A stretch of 45,150 bases of DNA from Dehalococcoidia bacterium (GTDB lineage: Bacteria; Chloroflexota; Dehalococcoidia; GIF9; AB-539-J10). Where the stretch lies: NCBI GenBank assembly GCA_030602785.1, contig JAUVZB010000001.1, forward strand, positions 127,843 to 172,992, written 5' to 3'. This document shows, one piece after another, positions 1,958 to 38,185 of the stretch. Numbering within the stretch: the stretch's first letter is position 1; each line of letters opens with the position of its first letter. The translations under genes and the position numbers were made by a program. The notes under the pieces were generated by a model. That model was given only the letters and a program-made list of their open reading frames with translations, searched no databases and was not told where the DNA came from.

Positions 1958-1970
1958 TCTAGTCACTCCC

Positions 1971-7025: not shown

Positions 7026-7059
7026 AGGCCGCACGCCTCGGGCAAAAGGGCATTTGCTG

Positions 7060-7068
7060 TGTTACAAT
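7060..7068 (+). promoter_or_regulatory. Extended -10 promoter element of the xer recombinase gene
   Basis: TGT-TACAAT (7060-7068) precedes the ATG at 7078 by 9 bases. There is no ribosome-binding site between them, which again fits a leaderless message. The -35 region has no TTGACA-like hexamer, consistent with an extended -10 promoter. Confidence 0.5.
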
Positions 7069-7077
7069 AAAATTCCC

Positions 7078-7932
7078 ATGGAGCAGGAGATCACGGCTTT
7101 CCTCGACTACCTGGTTAAGACCAAGGGTTCTTCACAGAACACCGTGGCTGCCTACCGCAATGACCTCACCCAGCTGTCGGAATTCATGACGGCTGAGAAG
7201 GCGAAGGGCATACTGGCGTCCCAGGAAGAACTGCTCATGGCCTATCTTGTGAATCTCAAGGGAAAGGCGTACTCGCCGGCCACCGCCGCGCGCAAGATTG
7301 CATCGGCGAGGTCATTCTTCAAGTACCTCGTGGCCAGCGGGCAGCTCAAGGAAAACCCCGTGAGAAACCTGATGAGCCCTCAGGTCAACAAGAAAGCGCC
7401 ACGTGTGTTGACACAGGCCGAATACCTCAGGCTGGTGGCCGTTCCTGGCTCTCTCTCGACGCCGGAAGCCCGGCGGGACGTGGTGATGCTGGAGCTCCTC
7501 TATGCAACCGGGCTCAGGGCAAGCGAGATCGTGTCACTGCAACTGCGCGACATCGACCTCCGGCAGTCGACCTTGTACTGTCGGCACGGCGAGTCCCACA
7601 GACAGATTCACCTGTCGGCCGACGTGGTGGGCCTTTTGCGAGGGCACGTTACGGATGGGCGGCTCGACCTCCTGTATGACGAGAAGGAACAGGCGCTCTT
7701 CCTCAACCGGCGTGGGCACCAGCTCACGCGCCAGGGATTCTGGCAGATAGTCAAGAACTACGCGGTCAAGGCAGAGCTTGGTGACCGCGTCACTCCTCAT
7801 ACGCTGCGCCACAGCTTTGCTGTCAGGAAAGTGCAGGGCGGCACAGACTTGCGTTCACTCCAGCAGACGTTGGGGCATGCGTACATCTCGAGCACACGGG
7901 TCTACAAGCAACCCCTCTCTACGGTTAAGTAG
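7078..7932 (+). CDS. Tyrosine recombinase, XerC/XerD type
   Basis: This 284-residue site-specific recombinase has an N-terminal SAM-like DNA-binding domain (about residues 1-85, with SSQNTVAAYRNDLTQL) and a C-terminal catalytic domain. The catalytic residues are visible: Arg in ATGLRASEI, His and Arg in HTLRHS, His in LGHAYISS, and the nucleophile Tyr in TRVY. Length and architecture fit the housekeeping Xer proteins that resolve chromosome dimers at dif sites. The genomic setting next to uvrC, with no attachment site nearby, favours a housekeeping role over an island integrase. The last residues after the catalytic Tyr are short. Whether it acts alone or with a second Xer protein cannot be told here. 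It is distinct in sequence from the integrase remnants near 12 and 32 kb. Confidence 0.85.
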   Translation: MEQEITAFLDYLVKTKGSSQNTVAAYRNDLTQLSEFMTAEKAKGILASQEELLMAYLVNLKGKAYSPATAARKIASARSFFKYLVASGQLKENPVRNLMSPQVNKKAPRVLTQAEYLRLVAVPGSLSTPEARRDVVMLELLYATGLRASEIVSLQLRDIDLRQSTLYCRHGESHRQIHLSADVVGLLRGHVTDGRLDLLYDEKEQALFLNRRGHQLTRQGFWQIVKNYAVKAELGDRVTPHTLRHSFAVRKVQGGTDLRSLQQTLGHAYISSTRVYKQPLSTVK

Positions 7933-14318: not shown

Positions 14319-15143
14319 CTACATGTAGCCCAGTTGGCGCAGTCTCGCCATCATCTCTTCCTTGTCTTGTCGACGGCCAGCCCGTTCCTTGGTGTGCTCC
14401 AAGTCTTGCTCCCAAGCAGGAACACCTGCCTGGGCAATGGCGCTCGTCGTCCTTGCACCTAAGGAACGGTATCCCTGCTCATAGAGGACGCAATGTGGGA
14501 TCTTGAAGACTTTGTATGTGTCCCACAAGAGCCGCTCGGTGAAATGGAGGATTGGCTTGACGCGGACATGTTCTGGTATTAGATGGGCTGCTTCTCTTGT
14601 TTCGCAATACTCGTCAGCCACCCTGGCTCCCTGCTCGTCTCGCCGAAGGCCTTGAAAGATTGCCTTGACATTGTGTCGCTCAATATACTTGTTGAACTCG
14701 ACGGTCTTCATAAGGTGGTTGCCGACGTAGGACTCTGCCTCAAAAGGGAAGGCGCTGCCCGAGAAGTCGATTCGTTTCAATTCTGCCCTGTTCCGCTCAT
14801 CGAGATCGGCCACTTTGACCGTCGCGTTGAGTTCCCCCCTTGCGGCTCTGACCACGTCGTCATTCCTGCACCACTCAAGTTCGAGAGCCCACTCTTTGGC
14901 ATATCTCTCCATGAAGTCATGAATCTCCTGGAATACGTCGAATTCGTCAATCGTCATGACCTTTGGCAGCTTGATGCCATGCGCTAGGCAGAATCGCCGG
15001 ATTATCCAGAGTGTCAGTGTGCTGTCCTTTCCACCAGTCCAAGTGATGGCCATATCTTCTGGCCTGAAATCCACGAAGGCCTCTCGTACAACCTGCTCGG
15101 ATTTCGCAACCGCATACTCGCATGCTTTCTCTCTATCTGTCAT
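14319..15143 (-). CDS. PP-loop protein, CysD/PAPS-reductase family
   Basis: The 274-residue protein carries the PP-loop ATP-binding motif TWTGGKDSTLTLWI at residues 33-46, FQGLRRDEQGAR in the middle, and YEQGYRSLGARTTS near the C-terminus. It ends with ERAGRRQDKEEM...RQLGYM, which resembles the tail of CysD, the small subunit of the heterodimeric ATP sulfurylase. The catalytic ECGLH cysteine tail of true APS/PAPS reductases is absent, so it should not be a reductase. No CysN (GTPase subunit) gene is in the window. It is the last gene of a leftward operon with sat and a sulfatase-like gene, 29 bases after the latter. It may bind APS or sulfate together with Sat, or adenylate another substrate. 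Its exact activity is open. Confidence 0.7.
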   Translation of the reverse strand: MTDREKACEYAVAKSEQVVREAFVDFRPEDMAITWTGGKDSTLTLWIIRRFCLAHGIKLPKVMTIDEFDVFQEIHDFMERYAKEWALELEWCRNDDVVRAARGELNATVKVADLDERNRAELKRIDFSGSAFPFEAESYVGNHLMKTVEFNKYIERHNVKAIFQGLRRDEQGARVADEYCETREAAHLIPEHVRVKPILHFTERLLWDTYKVFKIPHCVLYEQGYRSLGARTTSAIAQAGVPAWEQDLEHTKERAGRRQDKEEMMARLRQLGYM

Positions 15144-15172
15144 CTCTTTCCTCCACGGCTATCTTGTTCAGT

Positions 15173-16387
15173 TCAAGCAGGATTTCTTCCCCATCGACGG
15201 ACGCGCGGCTTCAATAGGACTTTGAGCTTGGCTGCGTCAACCGACGAATCCACGATGTTCTCCTGTTCGCTGGGATCGTCCGCCAAGTCATACATCTCCC
15301 AAGTGTCCAAGTAGGCGTGGTATAACAGCTTCAGATTGTCTTTTCGACAGAAGTAGGAGTCCCGGCCAATATCCCCGCCACGCTCGGTCTTCTGATCAAG
15401 GGCCTCTCCAAATACGAGTCTCGGGACGTAGTATTCGACGGGTATCAGCGACGCGCCACGAAACTCCTCGACTGGCTCGAGTCCGCACAGCTTCACTACA
15501 GTGGGCGGAACATCAATATTGCTCACCAGCTTATGACAGCGAGCCATGCTCTCCCGTTCTGACTGATAGACCAGCAGGGGTATGTCAAGCAGTTCGGAGT
15601 AAAGTTTGTTGTCGTGAGAAAGCCCCCCATGCTCGGCGAACTCATCACCGTGATCGCTGGTGATTAGAACCGACGTGTCCGGAAGTACATCGAGCGACTC
15701 CAGCGAAGCGAAGAGTTCGCTCAGGTAGTCATCCACCTCGCGTACTTGGGCGTCATACAACTTCTTCAAGAGTCTCACCTGCTCTGGGTCAGATACGTCT
15801 CGCTTGAGCAGAACATCTTGAAAGAGAGCGAACATCTCCTGCTCATTCAAAGTAGTAGATGGCTCAACAAGTTCCAAGTATCGTCGCGGTGGAACATATG
15901 GTTCGTGAATATCCATATAGTGTATCCATAGGAAGAATGGGCCGTGAACTCTTTCAACATGTGATGATAGCCACGCCATAGCCTTCGTGTTGATCACGTG
16001 CCCCTTAACATACGGAGCTTTCTCATCCACCTCGTCCTGCATAGAGTCGTAGAAGACATCCCAACCCCGATTCCATCCGAGGTACGCGCAGAGATGGGGA
16101 TTGGAGTGGAACGCTGCAGTTGTGATACCGACCTCTCTAAGTGGCTCGGATATGAGAGTTCTCTCAGGAGCTAGCCCTCGCGGCCTGCCATAGTCCAAGT
16201 AGTAAGATGAGGTGAGTAGACCTGGAAAAGATGCTTGCGTATAGGGCCCTGTGGACTGCGCGTTGGTGAATACTAGACACTTGTCCACCAACGAATCGAC
16301 AAAGGGCGTCAACCCGTCATTGTTGCCGTAACACCCAAAGACATCCTTGCGAATCGCATCGATCGTTACGAGAACAACATTGTTCAT
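15173..16387 (-). CDS. Sulfatase-like hydrolase (alkaline phosphatase superfamily)
   Basis: The 404-residue protein starts with the metal-binding strand NVVLVTIDAIRKDVFGCYG, typical of type I sulfatases. It contains HYMDIHEPYVPP and the second metal site LITSDHGDEFAEHGG. At the position of the formylglycine motif (CxPxR or SxPxR) it has TGPYTQASFPGLLTS, so the nucleophile is probably a Thr or Ser that is not converted to formylglycine. Such variants occur in the phosphoglycerol-transferase and phosphodiesterase branches of the superfamily, so sulfate-ester hydrolysis is not assured. There is no signal peptide, so it acts in the cytoplasm. The start overlaps the sat stop as ATGA, indicating translational coupling. 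Confidence 0.8.
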   Translation of the reverse strand: MNNVVLVTIDAIRKDVFGCYGNNDGLTPFVDSLVDKCLVFTNAQSTGPYTQASFPGLLTSSYYLDYGRPRGLAPERTLISEPLREVGITTAAFHSNPHLCAYLGWNRGWDVFYDSMQDEVDEKAPYVKGHVINTKAMAWLSSHVERVHGPFFLWIHYMDIHEPYVPPRRYLELVEPSTTLNEQEMFALFQDVLLKRDVSDPEQVRLLKKLYDAQVREVDDYLSELFASLESLDVLPDTSVLITSDHGDEFAEHGGLSHDNKLYSELLDIPLLVYQSERESMARCHKLVSNIDVPPTVVKLCGLEPVEEFRGASLIPVEYYVPRLVFGEALDQKTERGGDIGRDSYFCRKDNLKLLYHAYLDTWEMYDLADDPSEQENIVDSSVDAAKLKVLLKPRVRRWGRNPA

Positions 16388-17559
16388 TCGGCATTCTGTC
16401 CTTGGTAGTAGGTCGCGAGAATGTCTGCCACTTCTGGCCGCATGAGCTCCTCAGGCGGGTGTTCTCCGACCCTAAGCAATCGGCGCAGCTCAGTGCCACT
16501 CACGGTCAGATGATCTTCCTCGCCATGGGGACATGTCCTTTGGGAAGCCACCGCTCCGCACCTTCGACACCAGAAGGCCGTGTCTAGTTTCAAGGGCCGA
16601 ATATGGAGATCGCCTGGCTCAAGTTCATCGAAGATGAGTTGGGCGTCAAACGCGCCGTAGTAGTTTCCAACCCCCGCGTGGTCGCGCCCGACAATGAGAT
16701 GACTGCAGCCAAAGTTCTGGCGAATAATGGCATGCAGAATTGCCTCCTTGGGGCCGCCGTAGCGCATCTCCAGCGGGTAGACCTTGAGTGCGACTCTGTT
16801 TTTGGGATAGTAGTTGTCCAGAAGCGCCCTATAGGTCTCCATCCGTACCTCTGCGGGGACATCACCGGTCTTCAGTCTCCCTACAAGCGGATGAATGAGA
16901 ATGCCGTCACAGATCTCCATGGCAAGCTTCGTAAGGTACTCATGTGAGCGATGCATCGGGTTCCGGGTTTGGAACGCTGCCACAGTCTTCCAGCCGCGCC
17001 CAGAGAATATCCTTCTGGTCTCTTTGGGTGTGGCGAACTCTGGAAACCTGTCGCGATATCCCGCTTCCGAGAAGACCTGCACTGCACCGGCGAGATAGGC
17101 TTCTCCCTGCCTGCAAAGATTTGCCACGGCTGGATGACGTTCATCTTCGGTGCGGAACACCTGTCGCGCTTCCAGCTTCTTGTCGTAGGTGTATGTCTCC
17201 TCCACGACCATGGTGCCGACGATTTCTGACGCATCTGGGTTGAAAAGCGCCACTTGTTCGTTGATGGCAATACTCGCAGCCGTCTCGTTTGAAACTGGTA
17301 GCGTTATTGGAATTGGCCAAAGCGTGCCATTTGCCAGATGCGACTCGTTCAACACATTGAGATAGTCTTCTTGCTTCAAGAATCCTGTCAGTGGACTAAA
17401 AGCACCCATACCGAACATGACTACATCCGAGAGTGCCTGTGAACTGAGGCCGACTTTCCGCATTCGGCGTGCCTCGGTGAGCGCGTACTCGCGCGCTGCA
17501 CCTTCTGCTATCATAAGAGGCAGTAGCGTTCCCCCATGTGGCGCTACTAGGTCGCCCAT
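16384..17559 (-). CDS. sat: Sulfate adenylyltransferase (ATP sulfurylase)
   Basis: This 391-residue homo-oligomeric ATP sulfurylase makes adenylylsulfate (APS) from ATP and sulfate, or the reverse. Visible signatures are the N-terminal PUA-like start (MGDLVAPHGGTL), the nucleotide-binding AFQTRNPMHRSHEYL, LIVGRDHAGVGNYYG, and the zinc-binding segment FWCRRCGAVASQRTCPHG followed by VSGTELRRLL. All catalytic regions are intact. The ATG at 17559 is chosen: GGAGGG lies 11 bases upstream, and the family usually starts just before LVAPHGG. A GTG at 17595 is the longer option. It is the first gene of the leftward operon sat-sulfatase-cysD-like. No APS kinase or APS reductase is present in the window. 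Confidence 0.93.
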   Translation of the reverse strand: MGDLVAPHGGTLLPLMIAEGAAREYALTEARRMRKVGLSSQALSDVVMFGMGAFSPLTGFLKQEDYLNVLNESHLANGTLWPIPITLPVSNETAASIAINEQVALFNPDASEIVGTMVVEETYTYDKKLEARQVFRTEDERHPAVANLCRQGEAYLAGAVQVFSEAGYRDRFPEFATPKETRRIFSGRGWKTVAAFQTRNPMHRSHEYLTKLAMEICDGILIHPLVGRLKTGDVPAEVRMETYRALLDNYYPKNRVALKVYPLEMRYGGPKEAILHAIIRQNFGCSHLIVGRDHAGVGNYYGAFDAQLIFDELEPGDLHIRPLKLDTAFWCRRCGAVASQRTCPHGEEDHLTVSGTELRRLLRVGEHPPEELMRPEVADILATYYQGQNAE

Positions 17560-18067
17560 GCCGTCTTCAACCCTCCGATGTGAAATCCTAACCACATGAA
17601 CTCCGGATTCCGAGCGTCTCTCATCACGACCCTCTGCTATCTGTCGATCTGTCGACCTTCCACTTAGTCAGCGACTGAGCGCTTGGATCTTGGCATTCGG
17701 TTCTTCGTCTGACTTTGGATGCGCTGAACCATGAGTCGCTTGTATCCGCGTGTATCAGCACAAGAAACCACTTGATAGCGGCGCTCCTGACGATGCCTTG
17801 CCGCGTCATCCAACCGCACGACTCAGATGGTAACGCTCTAGCTGGTATTGACCACGAACACCTCTCGGGACTCTCGGCGTCCACTACGCTACAGCCTGTC
17901 CGTCACCCTCCAGGTCGACTGGAACTCCGGGCCACTATAGGCGAAGTGCCCGACTTGACATTGCTCCCCTGCTACTACATCACGTCCCAGGGCATGACAC
18001 AAGCGCCATGTGGCGCACCTCTAGTTAGGCAAGTGTACTAGGCCACATGGCTTAGATGTCTTGGCTG
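17560..18067. other. Intergenic region between divergent sat and TRAP operons
   Basis: About 500 bases with no recognisable gene; short frames on both strands are featureless. The sat promoter must lie at its left end but no strong hexamer pair stands out. Direct or inverted operator repeats for the LuxR-type regulator were not evident by eye. Confidence 0.45.
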
Positions 18068-18096: not shown

Positions 18097-18251
18097 AGCT
18101 AAAAGGGCTTGATTCAATTGACGTGGGCAGTTTGCGAAGAGATTCTAGGAGACAGCAAGGCGGGAGAGTGCTGCGATGTTGCGGGTGTGGAGCTGATGAG
18201 GAAGTAGGATGACCGCAGCTGCAAAATCTAGAAATTGGAGGGAAACTAGTG

Positions 18252-19298
18252 ATGAAGATGAGGCTTACAGTAGTGGCTCTAGTGGGCGCGTTGATCTTGG
18301 TTGGTAGTGCGGTGAGTTGTGTTGCGGATGGCTCTGCCGAGACCTATGAGCTGTCACTCAACACGTGGGTCTCCAATGAGAGTCATCCTCTATACGTCAA
18401 CATCTTGAAGCCGTGGGCCGATGAGATTGAAAGCAAGACGAACGGTAGAGTTAAGACAACCATACACGTCAACCAGGGTCTGGCTAGTATGGCGAACTCC
18501 TACGACGCATGTGTGGATGGTGTCTGTGACATCACCGGAATAACAGGCGCAGCCATGGTCGGTCGTTTTCCGCTTGCAAGCATGCCTTTGTTGCCGGTGC
18601 TCTACATGAGTGCGGAGGAGGCAACATTGGGGCTTCAGGATTTGTATGCGGAATACCCGCAGTTCTTGGAGGAGGAATTGGGTGCAGTCCACGTGCTGTG
18701 GGACAACACCAATGATCCAACAAATCTGCTGAACGTTAGTGATACACCCGTCGAGACTCTGGAGGAGCTGCAAGCACAGGTGGTGGGGACGTTTGGTGCA
18801 GCCACCGACATGCTGAAGTTGCTTGGAACGAATCCTGCCGTAACGACGCAGCCCGAGGTCTATGGCATGATGGAGAGGGGGGTCATAGACTCCATTGTCA
18901 CTAACTGGGGTTGGTTTAGGGCCGCTCACATGGAAGAAGTGACAAGCTCGTACACCCTAGTTGGCTTCTATGCTGACCACATGATGTACGTGATGAACAA
19001 GGACGTGTATGAGGGTTTCCCGGATGACATCAGGGAAGTCATAGATGAGGTCAGTGCTACCAAAGGCATAGAAGCGGCCAAGATGTTCGACCGCGTGGCC
19101 ATTGAGACAACAGACTGGCTGAAGCAGGAGTATCCAGAGAAGCCCATTGCTAGTCTGGATCCCGACGAACTAGCCCGATGGAGGGACATGATTGCCCCGT
19201 TGCACGATGTCTGGGTTGACGAAGCAACGGAGAAAGGGTACCCGGCACGTCAGATGTTGGACGACTACATCGAATTCTGCTTGCAGCACCGAGAATGA
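18252..19298 (+). CDS. dctP: TRAP transporter solute-binding protein (DctP family)
   Basis: The 348-residue protein has an N-terminal signal segment (MKMRLTVVALVGALILVGSA) ending in AVSC, so it is probably a lipoprotein anchored outside the membrane. The mature part begins YELSLNTWVSNESHPLY, a typical DctP/TRAP-SBP start, and continues with DITGITGAAMVGRFPLASMP and VETLEELQ. TRAP binding proteins capture organic anions, usually carboxylates or sulfonates, through a conserved Arg. The exact ligand cannot be read. GGAGGG lies about 10 bases before the ATG. The membrane subunit follows without a gap. Confidence 0.9.
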   Translation: MKMRLTVVALVGALILVGSAVSCVADGSAETYELSLNTWVSNESHPLYVNILKPWADEIESKTNGRVKTTIHVNQGLASMANSYDACVDGVCDITGITGAAMVGRFPLASMPLLPVLYMSAEEATLGLQDLYAEYPQFLEEELGAVHVLWDNTNDPTNLLNVSDTPVETLEELQAQVVGTFGAATDMLKLLGTNPAVTTQPEVYGMMERGVIDSIVTNWGWFRAAHMEEVTSSYTLVGFYADHMMYVMNKDVYEGFPDDIREVIDEVSATKGIEAAKMFDRVAIETTDWLKQEYPEKPIASLDPDELARWRDMIAPLHDVWVDEATEKGYPARQMLDDYIEFCLQHRE

Positions 19299-21236
19299 TT
19301 GCCCAATGTATTCCCGCGGGCGGACCGAGTGCTGCAGGCAATTGACAGCATTGATCAGCGACTGCAGAAGGTCACCAGCGCGATAGCTCGTGTCTGCACG
19401 ACAGCGGCTGGTGGCCTTCTACTGGGCATGATCCTGCTCACCGCTATCGCGGTGATGGCTAGATACTTCTTCCGCAGACCGATAGTGGGGGCCGAAGAAG
19501 TCCTTACGCTGTCGCTCGTGGGATTGATCTGGCTGGTGCTGCCAGAAGTCGAATTGCGTGGGCGCCACATCAAGTCCACTATCTTGGTGGATAGATTCTC
19601 CACACACACCCGGCTGGTTCTGGACGGGGCGCTCAGTATCATCAATATAGCCATAATGGCTTTAATCACTTGGAGCATAATCCAACTGGCGTACAAGAAC
19701 CTGGCCGAGGGACACCTTAGTATGATCCTGCGTGTTCCGCTCGGTGCCGTCATGATAGTACTGGCTATAGGGGCCAGCGTATCAGGAATCGCGTTCCTAT
19801 CCACGTTTGTCCACAAACTGAAGGATGTGGTTAGGGCAGGAAGGCGCATGGTCTGGTTGCTTGTGCTGGGTTGTGCCATAGTCGTGGCCCTGTTCCTAAT
19901 GCCCTTGTTGTATGGCCTACTGCCAGGGGGCATAGACAGGTTCGTGGTTGGTCTGGTCGGATTCGCATTCATGCTCGTGATTCTGTTTTTGGGTGCTCCG
20001 ATTGGGAGTGCCATGTTTCTGACGGCGTATCTCGGCACAGCCTACATAGTCAGCATGAAGGCATCCCTCTCCAACCTCGCCTTGATTCCATTTGACGTCG
20101 GCGTAACCTACACGTGGGTTGTCGTTCCGCTGTTTATCGCTATGGGCAATCTCCTCTACCACGCCGATCTCGGCCGGGACCTGTATAGCACGGTGAACAA
20201 ATGGATCGGCCACCTGCCTGGGGGATTGGCGATGGCGACCATAGGCGCCTGCGCTAGCTTCGCTGCCGCTTGTGGTGAAAGTTTGGCTACGGCAGTCACC
20301 ATGGGTACAGTTGCGCTGCCTGAGATGCGCCGCTACAAGTATGACTCCAAGATCGCTACCGGTGCAGTCGCAGCTGGAGGGACGCTGGGTATCCTGATAC
20401 CGCCGAGTATCGGCTTCATCGTCTACGGGATAATCACTGAGCAGTCAATCGGGAGGCTGTTCATGGCTGGCATCATTCCAGGTATCATGCTTGCGAGCTT
20501 CTTCATGTTGGTCATCTACGTGAGGGTCCGCATGAACCCTTCACTGGCGCTGCCAGCCCCCCGACATAACATGAAAGAGAGACTTGCGTCGCTCCCCAGT
20601 GGACTACCCATACTCGCCTTGTTTGTCCTCGTAGTGGGGGGCATCTACGCCGGTCTGTTCGCTCCCAGCGAAGGTGGTGGGATTGGTGCCTTTGGTGTGC
20701 TGCTGATTGGCTTGATAATGGCGAGGTATACCTGGCGGAAGTTGGGGGAAGCAGTAAGGGATGCTGTTGTTACCAATGCCTCTGTGTTCTACATATTCAC
20801 GGCCGCCATAACGTTTGGGTATTTCGTTACGGTAAGTCATGTACCGCTGAGGTTGTCGGACATCCTTATGTCAGTCCCTGCTGGCCGGTACACAATCCTC
20901 TCCCTCATACTACTGATGTACATACTCCTCGGCTGTGTGATGAATATCCTGCCCGCGATGATAATCACGCTGCCTATCATCTTCCCTACCGTGGAGGCAC
21001 TGGGCTTCGACCCGATATGGTTTGGAGTGATCATGGTAATCACGATGGAGATGGGACAGATTACCCCGCCCGTAGGAATAAACGTATTCGGAATAGCAGG
21101 AATAGTACCGGATGTGCCTATGGGCACCATCTTCAGAGGGATTGTGCCCTTCTTTGGCATGATGTTGCTTGCCATCCTTGTGCTGTTGCTGTTCCCAGGC
21201 ATTGCTACGTTCCTGCCAAACCTGCTGTATCCGTAG
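19299..21236 (+). CDS. Fused TRAP transporter permease (DctQ-DctM)
   Basis: The 645-residue membrane protein combines both TRAP permease subunits. Residues about 1-170 form the small DctQ part with four hydrophobic segments (including VLTLSLVGLIWLVLPEVELRG, with the conserved Glu-Leu-Arg-Gly). From about residue 190 to the end lies the large DctM part with GVTYTWVVVPLFIAMGNLL, GACGESLATA-like SFAAACGESLATAVTM, GGTLGILIPPSIGFIVYG and, near the end, GQITPPVGINVFGIAGI. The gene starts with TTG directly after the dctP stop. It drives sodium- or proton-coupled uptake of the ligand bound by DctP. QM fusions are known in the TRAP family but less common than separate genes. Confidence 0.9.
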   Translation: MPNVFPRADRVLQAIDSIDQRLQKVTSAIARVCTTAAGGLLLGMILLTAIAVMARYFFRRPIVGAEEVLTLSLVGLIWLVLPEVELRGRHIKSTILVDRFSTHTRLVLDGALSIINIAIMALITWSIIQLAYKNLAEGHLSMILRVPLGAVMIVLAIGASVSGIAFLSTFVHKLKDVVRAGRRMVWLLVLGCAIVVALFLMPLLYGLLPGGIDRFVVGLVGFAFMLVILFLGAPIGSAMFLTAYLGTAYIVSMKASLSNLALIPFDVGVTYTWVVVPLFIAMGNLLYHADLGRDLYSTVNKWIGHLPGGLAMATIGACASFAAACGESLATAVTMGTVALPEMRRYKYDSKIATGAVAAGGTLGILIPPSIGFIVYGIITEQSIGRLFMAGIIPGIMLASFFMLVIYVRVRMNPSLALPAPRHNMKERLASLPSGLPILALFVLVVGGIYAGLFAPSEGGGIGAFGVLLIGLIMARYTWRKLGEAVRDAVVTNASVFYIFTAAITFGYFVTVSHVPLRLSDILMSVPAGRYTILSLILLMYILLGCVMNILPAMIITLPIIFPTVEALGFDPIWFGVIMVITMEMGQITPPVGINVFGIAGIVPDVPMGTIFRGIVPFFGMMLLAILVLLLFPGIATFLPNLLYP

Positions 21237-21305
21237 TTGGAGGCAAAGGTTCTGCGACCGGGAGACGTTAGCCTTCAAGAGACTGGACGCTATGGAGGAC
21301 TGGTT

Positions 21306-22484
21306 ATGAGTATTTCTCGAACGGCCAAGAAGGGCGTCACCTACTACAATCCTTCGAAGGCCTACAACGGCTACACGTTGTTCGCGCCCTTGTACACGAG
21401 GGATGTCTGGCTGATCGATATGGAGGGAAACATCGTCCAGCGATGGCGAATGCCGTACATACCAGGCCAGCACGCGTATATCCTGCCGAACGGCAATTTG
21501 CTGTGGGCGGGGAAGCAGAAGACCCCTGACGAACTGGGTTTGCCACTCGAGTTCGGCGGAATCGGCGGCTTGCTTCGCGAGATAGACTGGCAAGGGAACG
21601 TAGTGTGGGAAGCTCAGGTCCCCTATCAGAACCACGACTTCGTTTGCATGAGCAACGGTCATGTGCTGTTCCCTTCCTACTCGCCAGAGGGAGTGGTTCC
21701 TTCCGAGATGGCTGCGAAACTCCGCGGTGGTTTGCCTGGCACCGAGTTCGAGGGCAAGGTGTTTGGCGACTGCGTCCTCGAAATCGACAGGACAGGTGAG
21801 ATAGTGTGGCAATGGATAGCTCACCAGCATCTCGATCCCGAGATTGACGTGATGTGTCCACTCGAGAACCGCAACATATGGCCACTGCTCAATGCAGTGT
21901 TTCTGTGCAAGGATGGGAGCTTGTTGTTGAGTGGCCGCAATTGCAGCGAAATCATAAGGGTCAAGTACCCTGAGGGGCATGTGTTGGCACGCTACGGCCG
22001 GGGCAAAATAAGCCACCAGCACGATCCAAGGGAGCTTGAGAACGGAAACATATTGGTCTTCGACAACGGGGCTCACCGGCAACATGACTACAACGAGAGT
22101 CCAAGCTTCTCACGTGTGGTCGAGATCGACCCGAAGAACGATGAGATAGTATGGGAGTACCGTGCCGACCCTCCTACCGACTTCTATAGCGCCCTTACGA
22201 GCGGTGCTGAGCGAATGCCAAACGGCAACACGGTGATTTGTGAGTCGTGGCAGGGAAGAGTCTTCGAGGTGACGCATGAGGGGGAGTTGGTGTGGGAGTA
22301 TGTCAGCCCTTTCGTCGGCCGATGGCCAGCATGGGACACGAACGCCATGTGGCGGGCACATCGCTACTCGCCTGAGTATCCGGGCTTCGAAGGCAAGCCG
22401 CTGGATCCAGCAAGATTCGAATGGGAGAACCGCACATACGGACCTAGAGCCCTGAACAGCGAAGTCAACGTTTGCATTGTCTGA
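21306..22484 (+). CDS. Arylsulfotransferase-like beta-propeller protein 1
   Basis: The 392-residue protein resembles the ASST/Arylsulfotran_2 family. Repeated blade motifs of the type xNGNxLx occur in LPNGNLLW, SNGHVLF, LENGNILVF and MPNGNTVI, together with EIDxxGEIVWxW strands. The hallmark SHQHDPRELENGNILVFDNG holds candidate catalytic His residues. Arylsulfate sulfotransferases move sulfate from phenolic sulfates to other phenols without PAPS, and known enzymes are periplasmic. Here no signal peptide is visible, so a cytoplasmic location is predicted. The ATG at 21306 has GGAGG 7 bases upstream; the frame is open back to the dctQM stop. It is followed by a paralogue, and both lie in the TRAP operon, suggesting they act on the imported compound. 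True sulfotransferase activity is not proven; a binding or sensing propeller is possible. Confidence 0.7.
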   Translation: MSISRTAKKGVTYYNPSKAYNGYTLFAPLYTRDVWLIDMEGNIVQRWRMPYIPGQHAYILPNGNLLWAGKQKTPDELGLPLEFGGIGGLLREIDWQGNVVWEAQVPYQNHDFVCMSNGHVLFPSYSPEGVVPSEMAAKLRGGLPGTEFEGKVFGDCVLEIDRTGEIVWQWIAHQHLDPEIDVMCPLENRNIWPLLNAVFLCKDGSLLLSGRNCSEIIRVKYPEGHVLARYGRGKISHQHDPRELENGNILVFDNGAHRQHDYNESPSFSRVVEIDPKNDEIVWEYRADPPTDFYSALTSGAERMPNGNTVICESWQGRVFEVTHEGELVWEYVSPFVGRWPAWDTNAMWRAHRYSPEYPGFEGKPLDPARFEWENRTYGPRALNSEVNVCIV

Positions 22485-22497
22485 CGAATCGTCAGAC
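22479..22497. repeat. Palindrome at the junction of the two arylsulfotransferase-like genes
   Basis: GTCTGACGA-A-TCGTCAGAC is a perfect 9-base inverted repeat around one base. It begins within the last codons of the first gene and lies 25 bases before the second start. It could be an operator, a short hairpin that protects or attenuates the message, or chance. There is no following T run, so a classic terminator is unlikely. Confidence 0.4.
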
Positions 22498-22521
22498 CTG
22501 CGGGCTGCAAGGAGGCGATAG

Positions 22522-23718
22522 ATGGGCTACGCTCGGAATTCGATCAAAGGTGTTGTCTTCTGTGACTCCAGACGGACACTCAATGGGTACACGCTTCTCA
22601 CGCCGGTCAACGGAACCGCCACGTGGCTGATCGACATGCGGGGTCGCCACGTCAACCACTGGGATACTCACTTGGAAGCGGGGTGCCACAGCGAGCTGCT
22701 GCCCGGCGGGAGCCTTGTCTATGGCGGGAAGACCGCCGACAGAGCGCTGCCTGACTTGGAGGGAAGCTGCGGAGCAGTGCTGGAGTTGGATTGGGACAAC
22801 AGGAAGGTCTGGGAACATAGTGAGCCCTACATGCACGATCAATTCCATCGGCTCAGGAACGGTAATACTCTGATCATCAAGTGGGTGCAAGTGCCGGAAA
22901 CAGTAGCGAAAATGGTTGAAGGCGGCAACTCGGGGACGGAGAGAGACGGAGTTATGTGGGGCGATGCGATTCAGGAGATTGACGCGAATGGAGAAGTGGT
23001 CTGGGAGTGGGTTGCGCACGAGCACCTCAGTCCTACGGAAGACCGCATCTGCCCTTTGTGCACCCGAAAGGAGTGGACGCACGCAAATGCCTGCGCCGAG
23101 ATGGCCAACGGCAACATACTGGTCAGTTTCAAGAAGACCAACAGCGTAGCCGAGATTAACAAGAGGAGCGGCGAAATCGAATGGAGTTGGGGTGCAGATG
23201 ACCTGAGTCATCAGCATTCCCCAACAGAACTGGACAACGGCAATATCCTCATCTTCGACAATGGGTTTCACCAGTGGCATTTCCCTCACGGGTACTCCAG
23301 GCTGGTGGAATTCGACCCGAGAACTCAGAGTGTAGTGTGGACCTACAACGGCTCGGAGCGCATGCCACAGCACTTCTATTCATCCGCAATGTCCAACTGC
23401 CAGCGGCTGCCGAATGGGAACACCCTAGCGTGTGAAGCAGTGAGCGGGAGGATACTCGAAGTGACTGAGCGAGGTGAGTTGGTCTGGGAGTTCGTCAACA
23501 ACCTGCCTTCGTACGGGGCAGCAACTGTGACAGCCAAGTCATTGCCCGTGTTCGGCGCTTTCCGCTATGGCATGGACTACTCTGGCTTGAAACGTGATTC
23601 AAGGGGAGCCGAGGAAAGGCAAGCCGCGCCGGGCACTGCAACTGCCGGGGCAGAGGAACGAACGTCAGCCGCTATGGAGGAAGAGGTGACTGCTCGTCTG
23701 CTACGTCTTGGCTACTAG
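22522..23718 (+). CDS. Arylsulfotransferase-like beta-propeller protein 2
   Basis: This 398-residue paralogue of the preceding gene product shares its start (NGYTLLTPVNGTATWLIDM) and the blade repeats (RNGNTLII, MANGNILVS, LDNGNILIF, LPNGNTLAC). The same family hallmark is present as SHQHSPTELDNGNILIFDNG followed by FHQWHFPHGYSRLVEFDP. The C-terminus has an added Ala/Glu-rich tail of about 40 residues. No signal peptide is visible. AAGGAGG lies 7 bases before the ATG. The two copies are clearly diverged, indicating an old duplication and perhaps different substrates or a hetero-oligomer. Confidence 0.7.
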   Translation: MGYARNSIKGVVFCDSRRTLNGYTLLTPVNGTATWLIDMRGRHVNHWDTHLEAGCHSELLPGGSLVYGGKTADRALPDLEGSCGAVLELDWDNRKVWEHSEPYMHDQFHRLRNGNTLIIKWVQVPETVAKMVEGGNSGTERDGVMWGDAIQEIDANGEVVWEWVAHEHLSPTEDRICPLCTRKEWTHANACAEMANGNILVSFKKTNSVAEINKRSGEIEWSWGADDLSHQHSPTELDNGNILIFDNGFHQWHFPHGYSRLVEFDPRTQSVVWTYNGSERMPQHFYSSAMSNCQRLPNGNTLACEAVSGRILEVTERGELVWEFVNNLPSYGAATVTAKSLPVFGAFRYGMDYSGLKRDSRGAEERQAAPGTATAGAEERTSAAMEEEVTARLLRLGY

Positions 23719-23786
23719 TCTGGAGGTCCTTCGAACTAGTTTGACCTACATGCTTGGTGGCGTGCGTGGACGTTCTCGGTGAAGCA

Positions 23787-24350
23787 ATGGCTGAAGGATA
23801 CGTTGGCAGGATACTCTTCGTAGACTTGGGTGAGGGCTGGCTCTGGGACGAGAAACTGAACGCGCAGTTCTGTCAGCGGTACATCGGTGGCTACGGATTC
23901 GACGTGATCATGATACGTGACCATCAGAACATTGGAGCGGACCCTCTGGGCCCCAACCATGCGTTGTGCTTTCTCACCGGTCCTCTAGCCGACAGCGAAC
24001 TGCCATTCGGCTCATACCTCTCAGCAGTCAATGGCCCGTGGCCGATGCTTCCGGACGTATGGCACGTCAATCGGCTTGTAAGGTGCCATGGTACTTGGGG
24101 ACGCATCAGTGAAAATTGGGGGGGGTGGCGTCGGGGATTTCCCCCAGTCGAGCCTGGTCGGTGGCGAGAAGCTGGCCGCGCGAGTCCGTGGGCGATACGC
24201 ATGTTTCCGTTGCCCACTCGGGTTGGGCGGGCATGTTGAGGCTGGCGAGGAACATGGCTAGGTTGCTGGCGAGGAAGTCGGAATACGAGATGTTGGCTGC
24301 ATTTGGCCCTTTCTGTCTGAACGACAACCTAGAATCCTCCCGCCTGCCGT
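23787..24350 (+). pseudogene. Remnants of an aldehyde ferredoxin oxidoreductase
   Basis: The first part (from the ATG at 23787) reads GRILFVDLGEG, FCQRYIGGYGFD, ADPLGPNHALCFLTGPLADS and FGSYLSAVN, which follows the N-terminus of the tungsten-containing AOR family in order. After about 100 residues the match stops. In another frame near 24275-24325 a later AOR segment appears, SEYEMLAAFGPFCLNDNLES, corresponding to the family motif around PEYETLAALGxNxxxDDLE. Roughly 150 or more internal residues and the entire C-terminal half are missing. The gene is thus a deleted, frameshifted relic. The ancestral island probably carried a working aldehyde or carboxylate oxidoreductase step. Confidence 0.7.
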
Positions 24351-24402: not shown

Positions 24403-25155
24403 ATGTGCCGCCTTACTGTCATTCCATGTGGCAGATTGTTGATTGACAAGGGGGTCAATCTGACCCCAGGCTATGACCTCGGGGTACAGATCCGTATCCC
24501 GGTGACAGCCTACCTGATTGAGATAGGGAAGAAACGTATTCTCATCGATTCGGGTCTTAACCCCCTGGTTATTGAAGACCCAGTTCGAGCTATTGGTGAC
24601 TACATTCAAAGCAATACTCCCTTGGTTTCCCGGGCGGATCATATCTTGTCGAGGTTGAGCCAGATTGGTATGGGCCCAGACGATATTGATATGGTCGTAT
24701 GCACGCACCTTCATTTTGACCACGCAGGTGGCAACCAGTTCTTTGGAAGTTGCGACCTGATTGTCCAGAAATCGGAGATCGAAAGTGCCCGCAACTCTCC
24801 AGACTACATCCGTCACGATTGGGATTATGCCCACCTCAACTATCATCAGATCGAAGGAGATGAGGAAATCATGACAGGCGTGGATCTGATTAGTACACCG
24901 GGGCATAGCGCCGGACACCAATCCGTTTTGGTGAACTTGCCCAAGACCGGGGCAGTGTTGATAGCCGGTGATGCGGTTGCGCACTCAGACCATTGGTGCC
25001 GGGATTCGCCCGCACTGGCTGTCGACAAAGACCTGCTGGTCAACAGCCGCTTGAGACTCAAACATATTGCTGATACCAAGCAGTGTCTAACATTGTTCAG
25101 TCATGATCCGGAACAATGGAGTGCTCTAAGGGTCTTGCCCGACTACTACGACTAA
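24403..25155 (+). CDS. MBL-fold metallo-hydrolase, lactonase-like
   Basis: The 250-residue protein shows the metallo-beta-lactamase fold motif HLHFDHAGG (binuclear metal site). A first strand region with AYLIEIGKKRILIDSG, a later His in TPGHSAGHQSV, an Asp in LIAGDAV and a final His in LFSHDPEQW complete the site. This arrangement is that of the AttM/AiiA lactonase branch, which opens lactone rings. In this setting, between uptake genes and several catabolic enzymes, it more likely opens a lactone intermediate than a quorum-sensing signal. The ATG at 24403 begins right after the AOR remnants, and there is no strong ribosome-binding site. Confidence 0.8.
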   Translation: MCRLTVIPCGRLLIDKGVNLTPGYDLGVQIRIPVTAYLIEIGKKRILIDSGLNPLVIEDPVRAIGDYIQSNTPLVSRADHILSRLSQIGMGPDDIDMVVCTHLHFDHAGGNQFFGSCDLIVQKSEIESARNSPDYIRHDWDYAHLNYHQIEGDEEIMTGVDLISTPGHSAGHQSVLVNLPKTGAVLIAGDAVAHSDHWCRDSPALAVDKDLLVNSRLRLKHIADTKQCLTLFSHDPEQWSALRVLPDYYD

Positions 25156-25215
25156 CCGGGTGGAACTGGATAGGCCAAGACCCTACATCAAAGAGATCGG
25201 AAAGGATTGTGTCTC

Positions 25216-25977
25216 ATGCAACTAATCAATAGAGTCGCACTCGTTACCGGTGGCAGCAGAGGCATAGGGCGAGCAATCGCCTTGGCTCTTGCACAAGAGG
25301 GAGCCGATGTAGCCGTGAACTTCCACCGGGCGGAGGCGGAAGCCGAGCAAGTTGTGGGCAAAATCAGAGAGATGGGGCGGAAAGCGGTCGCCGTTCAGGC
25401 AGATGTCGCTATTCTCGAAGACGTTCAGCGGATGGTCGCAGCCACCGTAGATGAGTTCGGCAGAATCGATATCCTGGTCAACAACTCCGGCTGGGTCAAA
25501 GCGACACCTTTCTTGGAAATGAGCCTTGAAGAATGGGATCGCGGTATAGCGGTAAACCTTCGTGGTGTCTTCTTGTGTGGTCAAGCCGTAGCCCGGTTCA
25601 TGGTTCAAAACGGAATCCGAGGAAAGATCATCAACATCGGTTCAGTCTTGGGATTCACTCCTTTGCCGGGCCGGGCACACTATGGCCCGGCCAAAGCTGG
25701 GGTGCATAGCCTCACGAAGATCATGGCTCATGAGTTGGGCCCCTATGGAATAGTTGTTAACGGTATTGCCCCGGGCACTGTGGACACAGACATGATGGCC
25801 CAATTCTACGAGCCAGCGGGAAACAAGGAGGTCTTTGCCGAATCTATTCCGGTGGGCCATATCGGCCTGCCGGAAGAGATTGCTCCTATTGCTGTTCTGC
25901 TGGCTAGCGATCAGGCTAGTTTCATTGCAGGAACAATGATCCTGGTCGACGGCGGCATGCTGGCCTGCCTGCACTAA
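25216..25977 (+). CDS. Short-chain dehydrogenase/reductase, FabG-like
   Basis: The 253-residue SDR has the cofactor motif TGGSRGIG near the N-terminus, NNSG (family NNAG) after strand 4, and the catalytic Ser and YxxxK in NIGSVLGF and HYGPAKAG. The C-terminus GTMILVDGGM is typical of classical SDRs such as FabG. The residues after strand 2 (NFHRAEAE) suggest NADP or NAD preference cannot be set safely. The ATG at 25216 follows AAAGGA. In this operon it probably oxidises or reduces a hydroxy or keto intermediate of the catabolised substrate. Confidence 0.88.
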   Translation: MQLINRVALVTGGSRGIGRAIALALAQEGADVAVNFHRAEAEAEQVVGKIREMGRKAVAVQADVAILEDVQRMVAATVDEFGRIDILVNNSGWVKATPFLEMSLEEWDRGIAVNLRGVFLCGQAVARFMVQNGIRGKIINIGSVLGFTPLPGRAHYGPAKAGVHSLTKIMAHELGPYGIVVNGIAPGTVDTDMMAQFYEPAGNKEVFAESIPVGHIGLPEEIAPIAVLLASDQASFIAGTMILVDGGMLACLH

Positions 25978-26081
25978 GAACTTCAAGGAGATGCGCTGGG
26001 ACAGCAAGACCAGTATCTCAGACGGACAATGACTATCTGGACTAAGCCTCGATCAGATCGCTCGAGGTTCATCTGATTTGT

Positions 26082-26924
26082 TTGAAGAGACTTGAGCCCC
26101 GGAGAGTAGCTGAAATGGTTCAAAACGGATGGCAACATACTCTGGACATGGCCGCCCTATCACCAGCCAAGTTCCGTGAGATCGCAGCAGATGGTGGCTG
26201 GACCGATACTACTGATGACATTTGCTACGGCTACGCACAGGCCAACCTTGTAGCTGTGCCGGAAGCAAATGCCCTGGAATTCATGCTGTTTTGCTTCCAC
26301 AATCAGCGTGCTTGCCCCATGCTAGATGTTACTGAGCCTGGGAGTCCGCACCCGCTGATGGTCGCACCGCAAGCGGACTTGCGTCACGACCTGCCGCAGT
26401 ACCGTATCTGGAAGGATGGACAGGTGGTGGCTGAACCTGTGGATGCCACCGTCTATTGGCGCGATGACCTGGTTTCCTTCCTGCTGGGTTGCAGCCAGAC
26501 CTTTGAGCAAAGCCTCAAGGCAGCAGGCGTCCAATTCCGCCGTCTCGGGTGTTTCACTTCCACTATACAGTGTACACCGGTAGGCAGTTTCAAGGGGGGC
26601 ATAGCGGTTTCGGGGCGGCTGTTCCAGGGAATGCAAGATGTCATGCGCGCTATTCAAATCTCGTCACGTCTTCCATCGGCGCACGGTGCACCCTTGCACA
26701 TAGGTGATCCGCGAACGATAGGGATCGAAGACATGAGCAAACCGGATCTCGTTGCCTATCCGAAAGCCGTAATCGCGGAAGCTGATGAAACGGCGCTCTG
26801 GTGGGCCTGTGGCATAACACCACAGACTGTTGCCAGGGCAGCCAGGTTGCCGTACATGATCACTCACTATCCCGGCAAGATGTTCATTACTGACAGATTG
26901 AGCGAGCAGTTCGCAGTGCTCTAG
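26082..26924 (+). CDS. DUF1445 putative hydro-lyase (D-glutamate cyclase-like)
   Basis: The 280-residue protein matches the DUF1445/YcsI family. The family core is visible in GYAQANLVAVPEANALEFML, CPMLDVTEPG, LPQYRIWKDG, WRDDLVSFLLGCSQTFE, SAHGAPLHIGDPRTIGI and WACGITPQTVA, with MITHYPGKMFITD at the end. Members are annotated as hydro-lyases, and the mammalian relative DGLUCY is a D-glutamate cyclase. The bacterial reaction is mostly unknown. Start TTG 26082 lacks a good ribosome-binding site; internal ATG 26115 is possible but would cut into conserved sequence little. It lies in the island's catabolic series and could dehydrate or cyclise an acid intermediate. Confidence 0.82.
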   Translation: MKRLEPRRVAEMVQNGWQHTLDMAALSPAKFREIAADGGWTDTTDDICYGYAQANLVAVPEANALEFMLFCFHNQRACPMLDVTEPGSPHPLMVAPQADLRHDLPQYRIWKDGQVVAEPVDATVYWRDDLVSFLLGCSQTFEQSLKAAGVQFRRLGCFTSTIQCTPVGSFKGGIAVSGRLFQGMQDVMRAIQISSRLPSAHGAPLHIGDPRTIGIEDMSKPDLVAYPKAVIAEADETALWWACGITPQTVARAARLPYMITHYPGKMFITDRLSEQFAVL

Positions 26925-27000
26925 CCACTGACATGCTTCTGCACAAGGGGGCGAGAGCGTTGCTCCAGTTTAGTCTATGGATTACGTAAGGGGGAGGACA

Positions 27001-27987
27001 ATGACTCAGGAAATCTACGAAGCCGCGCTGGAGGAGGATAACCTCAACAAGTGCAGGGGGCACATACACACCAAGTTTGCGTACGGATCCACAGAGCCAG
27101 AAGAGTCGCGCCTACTTGCCCCGTTGTTCGAGATCGGTCGTGTCTGGGCGCTGATGGATGGTGCGATAGACACGCATGTGCACAGCGGTCCGGATGCCTA
27201 CAACACAAGGCTGTACGACGAGATGGAAATGGCAATCCAGGCATGTCAGGCTCATATGAAAGCCGTCGTGTTCAAGTGTCATTCCACTCCAAGTGCACGG
27301 TCTGCAGCAATCGTGCAACCCATGGTCAACAAGTGGGCTGATGAACACGGTCTGCCGAGAGTCGATGTTTTCGGTGGGGTTGTGCTCAACTATTCGGTTG
27401 GTGGTCTGAATCCCGAGGCGGTCAGCGTCAGCTACAGGGTCGGAGGCAAGGTGGTATGGCTGCCCAACATGGATGCTTCTTTTCATCGCAAAGTATTCGG
27501 GCAAGAGGGTGGAATCGAAGTACTCGACGAGAACGACAGACTTGTACCGGAGTTGATGGAAATCCTCGCAATGGTCAAAGAGGGTGACATGATGCTGTCG
27601 ATTTGTCACCAGAGCACAAAAGAGAGGTTCGCGATAGTCGATGGAGCTCACAGGATGGGCATCGAGCGTGTTGAGATTATCCATCCCACGCAGATGGTGT
27701 CCAAGATGACCGTCGAGCAAATGAAGACTGCCGCCGACAAGGGCGCGTATATTAGCTTCTACTGCGTCGATTTCGCGCCAGACCAATGGTCTTGGGAAGT
27801 CTTCCTGGAGGCAATCAAGGTTGTGGGTCCCGACCGTCTTGTTGCAGGCACGGACGCTGGTCACTTCGCCCTGCCAATGCCTGCCGACGCAATGCGGAGG
27901 TTCATCACCGAGATGTTGCTGCATGGGGTGTCCGAAGCAGACATCGAGAAGATGGTCAAGAGGAATCCGTCGAATCTTCTCTACTGA
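27001..27987 (+). CDS. DUF6282-type amidohydrolase-like protein
   Basis: The 328-residue protein has the metal-binding motif AIDTHVHSGPD near residue 50, FKCHSTPS, SICHQST, IIHPTQMV and AGTDAGHFALP in the order of TIM-barrel amidohydrolases. The DTHVHSGPD motif is typical of the DUF6282 group, for which no substrate is established. Metal ligands appear complete. The ATG at 27001 follows AGGGGGAGG closely; a longer frame starts at 26977. About 50 residues precede the first metal motif, longer than in many relatives. In this operon a ring-opening or decarboxylating hydrolase of the imported acid is plausible. Confidence 0.75.
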   Translation: MTQEIYEAALEEDNLNKCRGHIHTKFAYGSTEPEESRLLAPLFEIGRVWALMDGAIDTHVHSGPDAYNTRLYDEMEMAIQACQAHMKAVVFKCHSTPSARSAAIVQPMVNKWADEHGLPRVDVFGGVVLNYSVGGLNPEAVSVSYRVGGKVVWLPNMDASFHRKVFGQEGGIEVLDENDRLVPELMEILAMVKEGDMMLSICHQSTKERFAIVDGAHRMGIERVEIIHPTQMVSKMTVEQMKTAADKGAYISFYCVDFAPDQWSWEVFLEAIKVVGPDRLVAGTDAGHFALPMPADAMRRFITEMLLHGVSEADIEKMVKRNPSNLLY

Positions 27988-30112: not shown

Positions 30113-30332
30113 GAAGGGATACGAACTGGCGCCGGGCAAACCGCGCCGTATCGACACATTTCGATTGCTTTGATGGACACGCGAGGCTGGTGCATTTGCG
30201 TGTGCGAGAATCGAAAGAAGGGATATGCCGAGACGGCTGGGGCGAGGTGGCTGCCGAGCTCTCGTGCCTTCCAATCCATGGTCTGTCCTTGTCTTCCCAG
30301 GTGCCATGCCTGAAAGGGTTCAAGCTCGTGGG

Positions 30333-31385
30333 ATGAGAAAGCTACGCAACTGGTTGGGACCGGTGCGACCCCACGCCGCGCGGAGACGCGTTGGCTCAGG
30401 AACAAGGCTCCTTAGACGCGGACTCTTGACTGGAGTCAATGGCGCAGCGGCTGGTCGGCGCAGACAATTGATCCCAGTTCTCGGCGTGCTCGCAAGTCTT
30501 GGAATCCCCTTGCTTGCTGCTGGAATCCCATCTTCAACGTCGGACATGCAGCTCTGGGTGTGGCCGGTGCTTCTCTTCGTATTCTGTTTCGGGATCGGAG
30601 TTGTAGCGCCGTTGACTGGAGTCGGCGGTGGGGTGCTCTACGTACCCCTCGTAAGTGCATTCTTCCCATTCCACATTGACTTCGTCCGTGCCGCGGGCCT
30701 TCTTGTGGCGATGTCTGGCGCTCTGGCCGCAGGACCACATCTGCTCAGATGTGGCCTTGCCGACCTGCGACTTGCCCTACCTGTCTCTCTCATTGCGGCT
30801 TCATCCGCCGTGCTTGGCGCCCACATAGGCCTCGCGTTGGCTACTCATGTTGTGCAACTGTTGTTGGGAGTGCTCGTGATAGTGGTCGCGAGCGTGACTA
30901 TGATGAAGCGGAACTTGGAGACTCCGCTGGTCCAGTCCTATTGTCGATTGGGGACTAGATTGGGACTTGGGGGTCAGTACACGGAACAGACCTCGGGGGC
31001 CAGTGTTGAGTGGAGGACTCATCGGACTGCGCTAGGTCTTCTGTCGTTCGTTCTCGTTGGTCTTGTGGCGGGGATGTTTGGCCTCGGGGCCGGGTGGGCG
31101 AATGTTCCAGTCCTCAATCTGGTGATGGGCGTGCCTTTGAAAGTTGCGACTGGGACAAGCAACTTCCTGATTGCCTACACGGGCGCTTCCGCAGGCTGGG
31201 TATATCTGCATAGGGGGGCATTCCTTCCCTTCATAGTGGTGCCGTCGATTGCCGGACTGATGGCGGGAGCGAGTCTCGGTGCCCGTCTCTTGCCGCAGAC
31301 AAGACCCAGGGTCATCAGAGTGCTTGTCATAGTTGTGCTCTTGTTTGCCGGTGCCAAGATGCTGTTCGAGGGCCTAACGGGATGA
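30333..31385 (+). CDS. TauE/SafE-family membrane exporter
   Basis: The membrane protein of about 350 residues shows the duplicated TauE/SafE pattern. The first half has GIGVVAPLTGVGGGVLYVPLV and the second half has GLVAGMFGLGAGWANVPVLN, each with the conserved Gly-rich loop. About eight hydrophobic helices are present. The family exports sulfite, sulfoacetate or related sulfur compounds, mainly after sulfonate degradation, and this fits an island with sulfate activation and arylsulfotransferase-like genes. The frame opens at 30225 and several ATGs are possible (30306, 30333); none has a strong ribosome-binding site, and a basic N-terminal tail precedes the first helix. Its 3' end overlaps the next gene as ATGA. 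Confidence 0.82.
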   Translation: MRKLRNWLGPVRPHAARRRVGSGTRLLRRGLLTGVNGAAAGRRRQLIPVLGVLASLGIPLLAAGIPSSTSDMQLWVWPVLLFVFCFGIGVVAPLTGVGGGVLYVPLVSAFFPFHIDFVRAAGLLVAMSGALAAGPHLLRCGLADLRLALPVSLIAASSAVLGAHIGLALATHVVQLLLGVLVIVVASVTMMKRNLETPLVQSYCRLGTRLGLGGQYTEQTSGASVEWRTHRTALGLLSFVLVGLVAGMFGLGAGWANVPVLNLVMGVPLKVATGTSNFLIAYTGASAGWVYLHRGAFLPFIVVPSIAGLMAGASLGARLLPQTRPRVIRVLVIVVLLFAGAKMLFEGLTG

Positions 31386-37954: not shown

Positions 37955-38185
37955 CGGCGGAACGCCGTGGGATGCCACAACGGGCCGTATCCGCATACAA
38001 GCACAACGCCGGCCGCAGCCGGCAGGTTGAGTCCGAATCGTGCGCGGACTCCGGCCTCGTCTTTGTGCCGTCTTTGACCGCCAACACGCGCCAGTGCTAT
38101 TGTGTCCCGTAGCGGCCGCGAATGGCCGCCAACACGGAAATAGAGGGGGGCGCGCCCGGTGTGCGCGTCGAAAGGGAGTAGTAAC

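Follow-up and report, generated by a model that had tools for sequence, protein, structure and literature searches.

What might two proteins of the arylsulfotransferase (ASST) family that lack an export signal do directly behind a solute importer? The question is raised by a 45,150-nucleotide stretch of DNA from a Dehalococcoidia bacterium (hereafter, the window), in which genes for a TRAP transporter are followed by a tandem pair of such proteins. The ASST protein family is already known, and for most of its members neither the natural sulfuryl acceptor nor the physiological role is known (PMC13426309).

The TRAP genes and the tandem ASST-family pair

The original prediction of a DctP and a fused DctQM permease followed by two ASST-like proteins was confirmed by profile matches to PF03480, PF04290, PF06808 and PF05935 across positions 18249–23718 (Table 1). 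With DctP, DctQ and DctM all represented by profile matches in the window, the importer belongs to the TRAP transporters. The four genes lie on the same strand in the order dctP, dctQM (directly adjoining), ASST-A and ASST-B. An alternative start of DctP is possible at a Met codon at 18252, and the start of ASST-A was placed at Met24 (21306) from an alignment.

Table 1. Features of the locus and its surroundings, with the evidence for each (window positions).
Feature	Position	Strand	Evidence
DctP, TRAP solute-binding protein	18249..19298	+	PF03480 3.2e-24; hydrophobic N-terminus
Fused DctQM TRAP permease	19299..21236	+	PF04290 (DctQ) 3e-17; PF06808 (DctM) 1.1e-92
ASST-A, predicted six-bladed propeller	ORF 21237-22484 (415 aa); probable gene 21306..22484	+	PF05935 2e-22; PF14269 4e-16
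ASST-B, tandem paralog	22522..23718	+	PF05935 1.1e-21; PF14269 2e-21; C-terminal RLLRLGY tail
ATP sulfurylase (SAT)	16384..17595	-	NF003166 520 bits (cut-off 387); TIGR00339 418 (cut-off 323)
SULF, alkaline-phosphatase-superfamily protein	15173..16387	-	PF00884 8.7e-39; overlaps SAT by 4 bases
CysD-like/PAPS-reductase-domain PP-loop protein	14319..15143	-	PF01507 3e-21; TGGKDS PP-loop
Aldehyde:ferredoxin oxidoreductase (AOR) remnant, N-terminal domain only	23754..24239	+	AFOR_N 2e-12; homology ends near 24029
Metallo-beta-lactamase-fold, AHL-lactonase-like protein (peripheral)	24403..25155	+	PF00753 4e-16
SDR-like oxidoreductase by sequence (peripheral; SDRs common)	25207..25977	+	ORF
TauE/SafE-family anion exporter (peripheral)	30225..31385	+	PF01925 3e-35

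The two ASST-family proteins share 39% identity with each other, and no further PF05935 protein was found in the 2.57-Mb genome. Both score above the curated cut-offs of PF05935 and PF14269 (24.2 and 27 bits, respectively), with 80.1 and 59.8 bits for ASST-A and 77.7 and 77.4 bits for ASST-B. Their AlphaFold models (pLDDT 81 for ASST-A and 78.9 for ASST-B) predict the six-bladed propeller fold of the ASST type. The best structural match of both models is Cpz4, the caprazamycin ASST of Streptomyces sp. MK730-62F2 (PDB 9kf4/9kf6), with Z of 33.1 for ASST-A and 34.3 for ASST-B; the superpositions on 9kf6 (Z 33–34) cover 312–322 residues with an rmsd of 2.4–3.0 and 20% identity. AssT of Escherichia coli follows as the second match of the predicted models, and unrelated propellers come next with Z ≤22.8.

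Neither protein has a hydrophobic N-terminal segment, the maximal 12-residue mean hydropathy being 0.7–0.8 vs 2.96 for DctP, and the absence of signal peptides from the pair was thus correctly foreseen. AssT of E. coli CFT073 (PDB 3elq) is a periplasmic enzyme with an N-terminal beta-sandwich domain and DsbL/DsbI as partner (PMC13426309). The window's proteins share its propeller fold (Z 27–29) and possess equivalents of its His436 and Asn358, but they have neither an export signal nor the beta-sandwich, starting instead at the propeller; they also differ in forming a tandem pair, in having APS-enzyme partners and in the loss from each of one of His356 and Arg374 (E. coli numbering). Cpz4, like the pair, has an ASST-type propeller and is not a Gram-negative periplasmic enzyme. 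It is encoded by a single gene within an antibiotic pathway and, according to a sequence alignment, carries both the H-x-N and the R motif, which in the window are split over two paralogs; we know of no SAT, SULF or CysD partners of Cpz4. Given this closest solved relative and the signal-less ASST homologs that are common in the window's class, the earlier statement that known ASSTs are periplasmic was too broad. Signal-less singletons of this class (L065–L083; surveyed loci are cited by L numbers) belong to the same family, are of similar length and are 40–45% identical to ASST-A. They differ from the pair in that His356, Asn358, Arg374 and His436 are all intact, and neither SULF nor a CysD-like gene was found in their neighbourhoods.

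A divergent operon and its recurrence in other genomes

Absent from the original prediction was an operon on the opposite strand (14319–17595), situated 653 bases upstream of dctP and divergent from the TRAP/ASST genes, which encodes SAT, SULF and the CysD-like protein. SAT exceeds the curated scores for ATP sulfurylase and is the only PF01747 protein found in the genome. In SULF, the nucleophile position is occupied by Thr (GPYTQAS/A, of the form Y-T-(Q/E)-A) in every aligned ortholog. Identity as a formylglycine sulfatase was rejected, this motif replacing C/S-x-P-x-R in all aligned orthologs, and SULF is therefore probably no sulfatase; from what is known of the superfamily, Thr at this position may signify phosphodiesterase-like or transferase chemistry rather than sulfate-ester hydrolysis.

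The CysD-like protein is the only one with a PAPS-reductase domain (PF01507) found in the genome, and the solved structures closest to it are those of FAD synthase, CysD and PAPS reductase. With this PP-loop family it shares the TGGKDS motif, the GYRSLGA(R/K)TT region and a CysD-like C-terminus. Its best NCBIfam match, CysD, gave 67 bits, under the cut-off of 195, and, unlike the family, it showed no CysN-like partner among the gene products identified at these loci. A CysH-type PAPS/APS reductase was also rejected, with 42 bits against a cut-off of 154 (NF002537) and ER(A/G/S)GR at the site where the catalytic Cys of ECGLH would be expected. Dissimilatory sulfate reduction was rejected as the context for the window's genome (G000) since no aprA was found there; among 16 genomes, aprA was above cut-off only in G414 and G488. 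Because the cassette holds the genome's only SAT and only PF01507 protein and no aprA was found, any APS made or used by SAT has no standard reductive consumer that turned up in these searches.

The tandem ASST pair recurs in 13 loci, and the arrangement is therefore not a matter of chance. SAT, SULF and the CysD-like protein turn up again alongside ASSTs and TRAP or ABC importers on contigs titled Chloroflexota, Proteobacteria, Deltaproteobacteria and Spirochaetes; these records are metagenome-assembled and their titles supply the taxon names, so that binning errors are possible, but several independent records agree. Co-directional cassettes are seen in L113 (DctP-DctQM-SAT-SULF-CysD-PDE-ASST_A-ASST_B-ASST) and L127 (ASST-DctP-DctQM-PDE-SULF-CysD-SAT-TauE), PDE being a PF01663 phosphodiesterase present in several cassettes. 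L108 has the order ASST-DctP-DctQM-PDE-SULF-CysD-SAT, with a TauE-like open frame at the locus edge, and L024, titled Deltaproteobacteria, that of SULF-CysD-DctP-DctQM-A-B. With L130/L027, titled Dehalococcoidia, the SAT/SULF/CysD-like and TRAP/ASST groups are on one contig together with TauE. Homologs of the fused DctQM were identified in L024, L028, L107, L108, L113, L127 and L130. The association of TRAP genes with two ASSTs is hence conserved across genomes, which supports the original prediction. The predicted coupling to a TRAP importer holds for the window and several other loci but not always: the Proteobacteria-titled L023/L111 and the Spirochaetes-titled L026 have an ABC importer in its place. 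Among loci, the binding proteins of the TRAP systems form a diverse set, and the cargo may therefore vary.

Among the 393 genomes of the window's class, 2 yielded orthologs of the CysD-like protein (E ≤1e-50), and among 85 of another class 5 did so; all eight CysD-like loci in the 478 genomes searched adjoin SULF or ASST; the sole locus without ASST (L126) is a contig of 3.7 kb. SULF (E ≤1e-90) was found in 3 of the 393 class genomes, every time beside an ASST. Two gene fusions were also observed. A single 707-aa frame (L128:7622–9745), with an ASST-like gene and a TRAP transporter as neighbours, joins SULF to the CysD-like protein, a fusion that further distinguishes the latter from its family, and a 766-aa frame (L032:291–2591 and L033:12547–14847) joins ASST-A to ASST-B. 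Some pairs stand alone (L025/L129), and no SAT, SULF or CysD was found near those of L025, L029 and L064.

Complementary residue losses in the paired propellers

In E. coli AssT, the sulfated residue is His436, and His252, His356, Asn358, Arg374 and Thr501 surround the sulfuryl group (PMC13426309). The equivalents in ASST-A, numbered according to the 415-aa ORF, are His79 (His252), Asn219 (Asn358), Arg234 (Arg374), His262 (His436) and Thr321 (Thr501), with Leu217 in place of His356. ASST-B keeps the equivalents of His252, His356 and Asn358, has His232 as that of His436, and carries Lys in place of Arg374; the Thr501 position is not conserved. Catalytic correspondence to E. coli AssT therefore extends to the nucleophilic His and Asn358, retained in both propellers, but not to the complete sulfuryl-binding set of His252, His356 and Arg374, of which His252 alone is common to the two. 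As this set is incomplete in each, ASST-A and ASST-B are described here as ASST-family homologs and not as ASST enzymes. The original prediction had named, as speaking against it, the combination of missing catalytic residues in both proteins with the lack of a conserved neighbourhood; what was found instead is retention of His and Asn358 and a conserved neighbourhood.

A maximum-likelihood tree resolved an A clade of 12 rows (support 97/94) and a B clade of 14 rows (98/93). His356 is lost throughout the A clade (12/12; replaced by Tyr, Leu or Cys), all members of which keep Arg374, and the B clade has lost Arg374 in 13 of 14 members and kept His356 in 11 of 14. The first-position proteins of L027, L028 and L113 retain the full set of His252, His356, Asn358, Arg374 and His436, and in these loci it is the partner B that lacks His356, leaving exactly one His356 per tandem pair in all 13 pairs scored. 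A composite active site across an A–B dimer was considered from this regularity and is not claimed, because the AssT active site sits within one propeller and the tree needs few events.

Both His356 and Arg374 are kept in 3 of 35 cassette-clade members vs 24 of 25 proteins outside the clade (Fisher 2e-12, a descriptive value as the rows are related), and classical aryl-sulfate transfer is therefore not to be assumed. The loss of one or other residue in the remaining 32 members favours the strongest rival explanation, that the propellers are no longer sulfotransferases and would serve as ligand-binding, scaffold or regulatory parts of other chemistry, such as phospho- or adenylyl-transfer on the imported compound. 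It would also accord with the single ASSTs of L034 and L110, which lack both residues and are still linked to SULF, with the B half of the fused A–B proteins (L032, L033), in which Asn replaces the nucleophilic His (QN for QH), and with the nature of the partners, namely a Thr-type alkaline-phosphatase-superfamily enzyme, a PP-loop protein and a PF01663 phosphodiesterase. However, 32 of the 35 members keep the His436 equivalent and all 35 keep Asn358, the three first-position proteins are complete, and both ATP sulfurylase and TauE recur as partners. A binding or scaffold function is thus a serious possibility, if a somewhat unlikely one.

A candidate sulfuryl-exchange module and its neighbours

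The explanation we prefer, with a probability of roughly 0.5, is that the propellers belong as a pair to a conserved cytosolic organosulfate-handling module and exchange sulfuryl groups with an adenylyl acceptor such as APS. A TRAP importer, or an ABC importer in some genomes, would bring in an anionic compound, and the two propellers, as a paired unit, would move the sulfuryl group of this cargo through a histidine-bound intermediate on one or both of them, to or from APS, a similar adenylyl acceptor or another internal acceptor. ATP sulfurylase would link APS to ATP and sulfate, and the CysD-like and alkaline-phosphatase-superfamily enzymes may process adenylyl or phospho intermediates. The genes, their recurrent linkage, the fold, the retained nucleophilic His, the complementary residue losses and the fusions are observed; from them we infer an organosulfate cargo, the transfer of sulfuryl groups and the joint action of A and B, whereas the choice of APS as partner and the direction of flux are speculative. 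The sulfuryl-handling step for an imported compound that was originally proposed fits this context, because ATP sulfurylase, the CysD-like protein and TauE-type exporters share the neighbourhoods, but it was too simple, each propeller lacking one canonical residue. In its most specific form, the proposal would be of a heteromeric ASST-type pair with reciprocal catalytic losses that, independently of PAPS, interconverts imported organosulfate plus AMP with APS, such that ATP sulfurylase recovers ATP, or that in reverse makes organosulfates directly from APS; this form is doubtful.

A biosynthetic direction, in which SAT would form APS from ATP and sulfate and the pair would draw on APS in place of PAPS for the sulfation of a cytosolic product, would agree with the presence of SAT in the cassette of a genome where neither a CysH-type nor an AprA consumer of APS was found, and with the role of Cpz4 in biosynthesis. 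It is nonetheless unlikely, since importers are the most recurrent partners, accompanied in some loci by AOR, MTTB and amidohydrolase genes of catabolic look, and since the sulfuryl donors of known ASSTs are aryl sulfates (PMC13426309). That chance has brought an ordinary TRAP operon together with diverged duplicates of an ASST and with a sulfate-assimilation operon unrelated to it, as the divergence and spacing of the window's two gene groups and the solitary pairs might suggest, is very improbable in view of the co-directional cassettes in records of several phyla, the gene fusions and the almost exclusive occurrence of the CysD-like protein and SULF at such loci, all of which point away from chance.

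No description of a module in which a pair of reciprocally degenerate ASST-type propellers is combined with SAT, a CysD-like protein and a Thr-type SULF was found in the open-access literature, most subscription papers lying outside that scope. For signal-less ASST-family proteins of uncultured bacteria, the module provides an entire conserved pathway setting, and it connects them with ATP sulfurylase and with a dedicated CysD-like protein, a connection for which no precedent was found in the open-access literature. Whether ASSTs can use APS could be tested on it directly and, if organosulfates do feed ATP sulfurylase, it would constitute an unrecognised route to energy or sulfate from sulfated organic matter.

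Several neighbours of the window's pair have counterparts elsewhere. AOR genes adjoin several ASST pairs, an intact copy being located beside the pair in L064, and TauE/SafE homologs recur beside the SAT group in L030, L127 and L130. A weak homolog of the AHL-lactonase-like protein (27.8% identity, 1e-15) lies beside the pair in L027/L130, and an SDR-like homolog (36% identity, 3e-39) near the TRAP genes in L130. The same-strand genes that follow the pair in the window (24403–27987) encode the AHL-lactonase-like protein, the SDR, a D-glutamate-cyclase/hydro-lyase and a DUF6282 protein. A gene for an MTTB-superfamily methyltransferase (PF06253) was observed upstream of ASST-A at L023:1413–2870, with a homolog at L064:4434–5915, which may hint at a methylated amine within the cargo.

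A C-terminal RLxxLGY tail is common to otherwise unrelated cassette proteins, namely ASST-B, the CysD-like protein, PDE and a second SULF (window 23682–23715 and 14319–14350; L024, L027, L029–L032, L064, L108, L113 and L128). On ASST-B, it seems to occur mainly where no PDE adjoins, and the exact DNA pattern of the tail with its immediate stop matches only ASST-B in the window's genome. The tail is possibly a docking peptide, a reading that stays a lead because the tail of the CysD-like protein may be ordinary CysD ancestry.

Elsewhere in the window, a phage-integrase-family recombinase (PF00589) is encoded at 7054–7932 and a large UPF0182 protein at 38159–40957. Genes for SepCysS (824–1993, minus strand; TIGR02539, 507 bits against a cut-off of 365) and SepRS (1971–3485, minus strand; TIGR00470, 431 bits against 381) overlap by 23 bases; these genes for tRNA-dependent cysteine synthesis are typical of methanogens.
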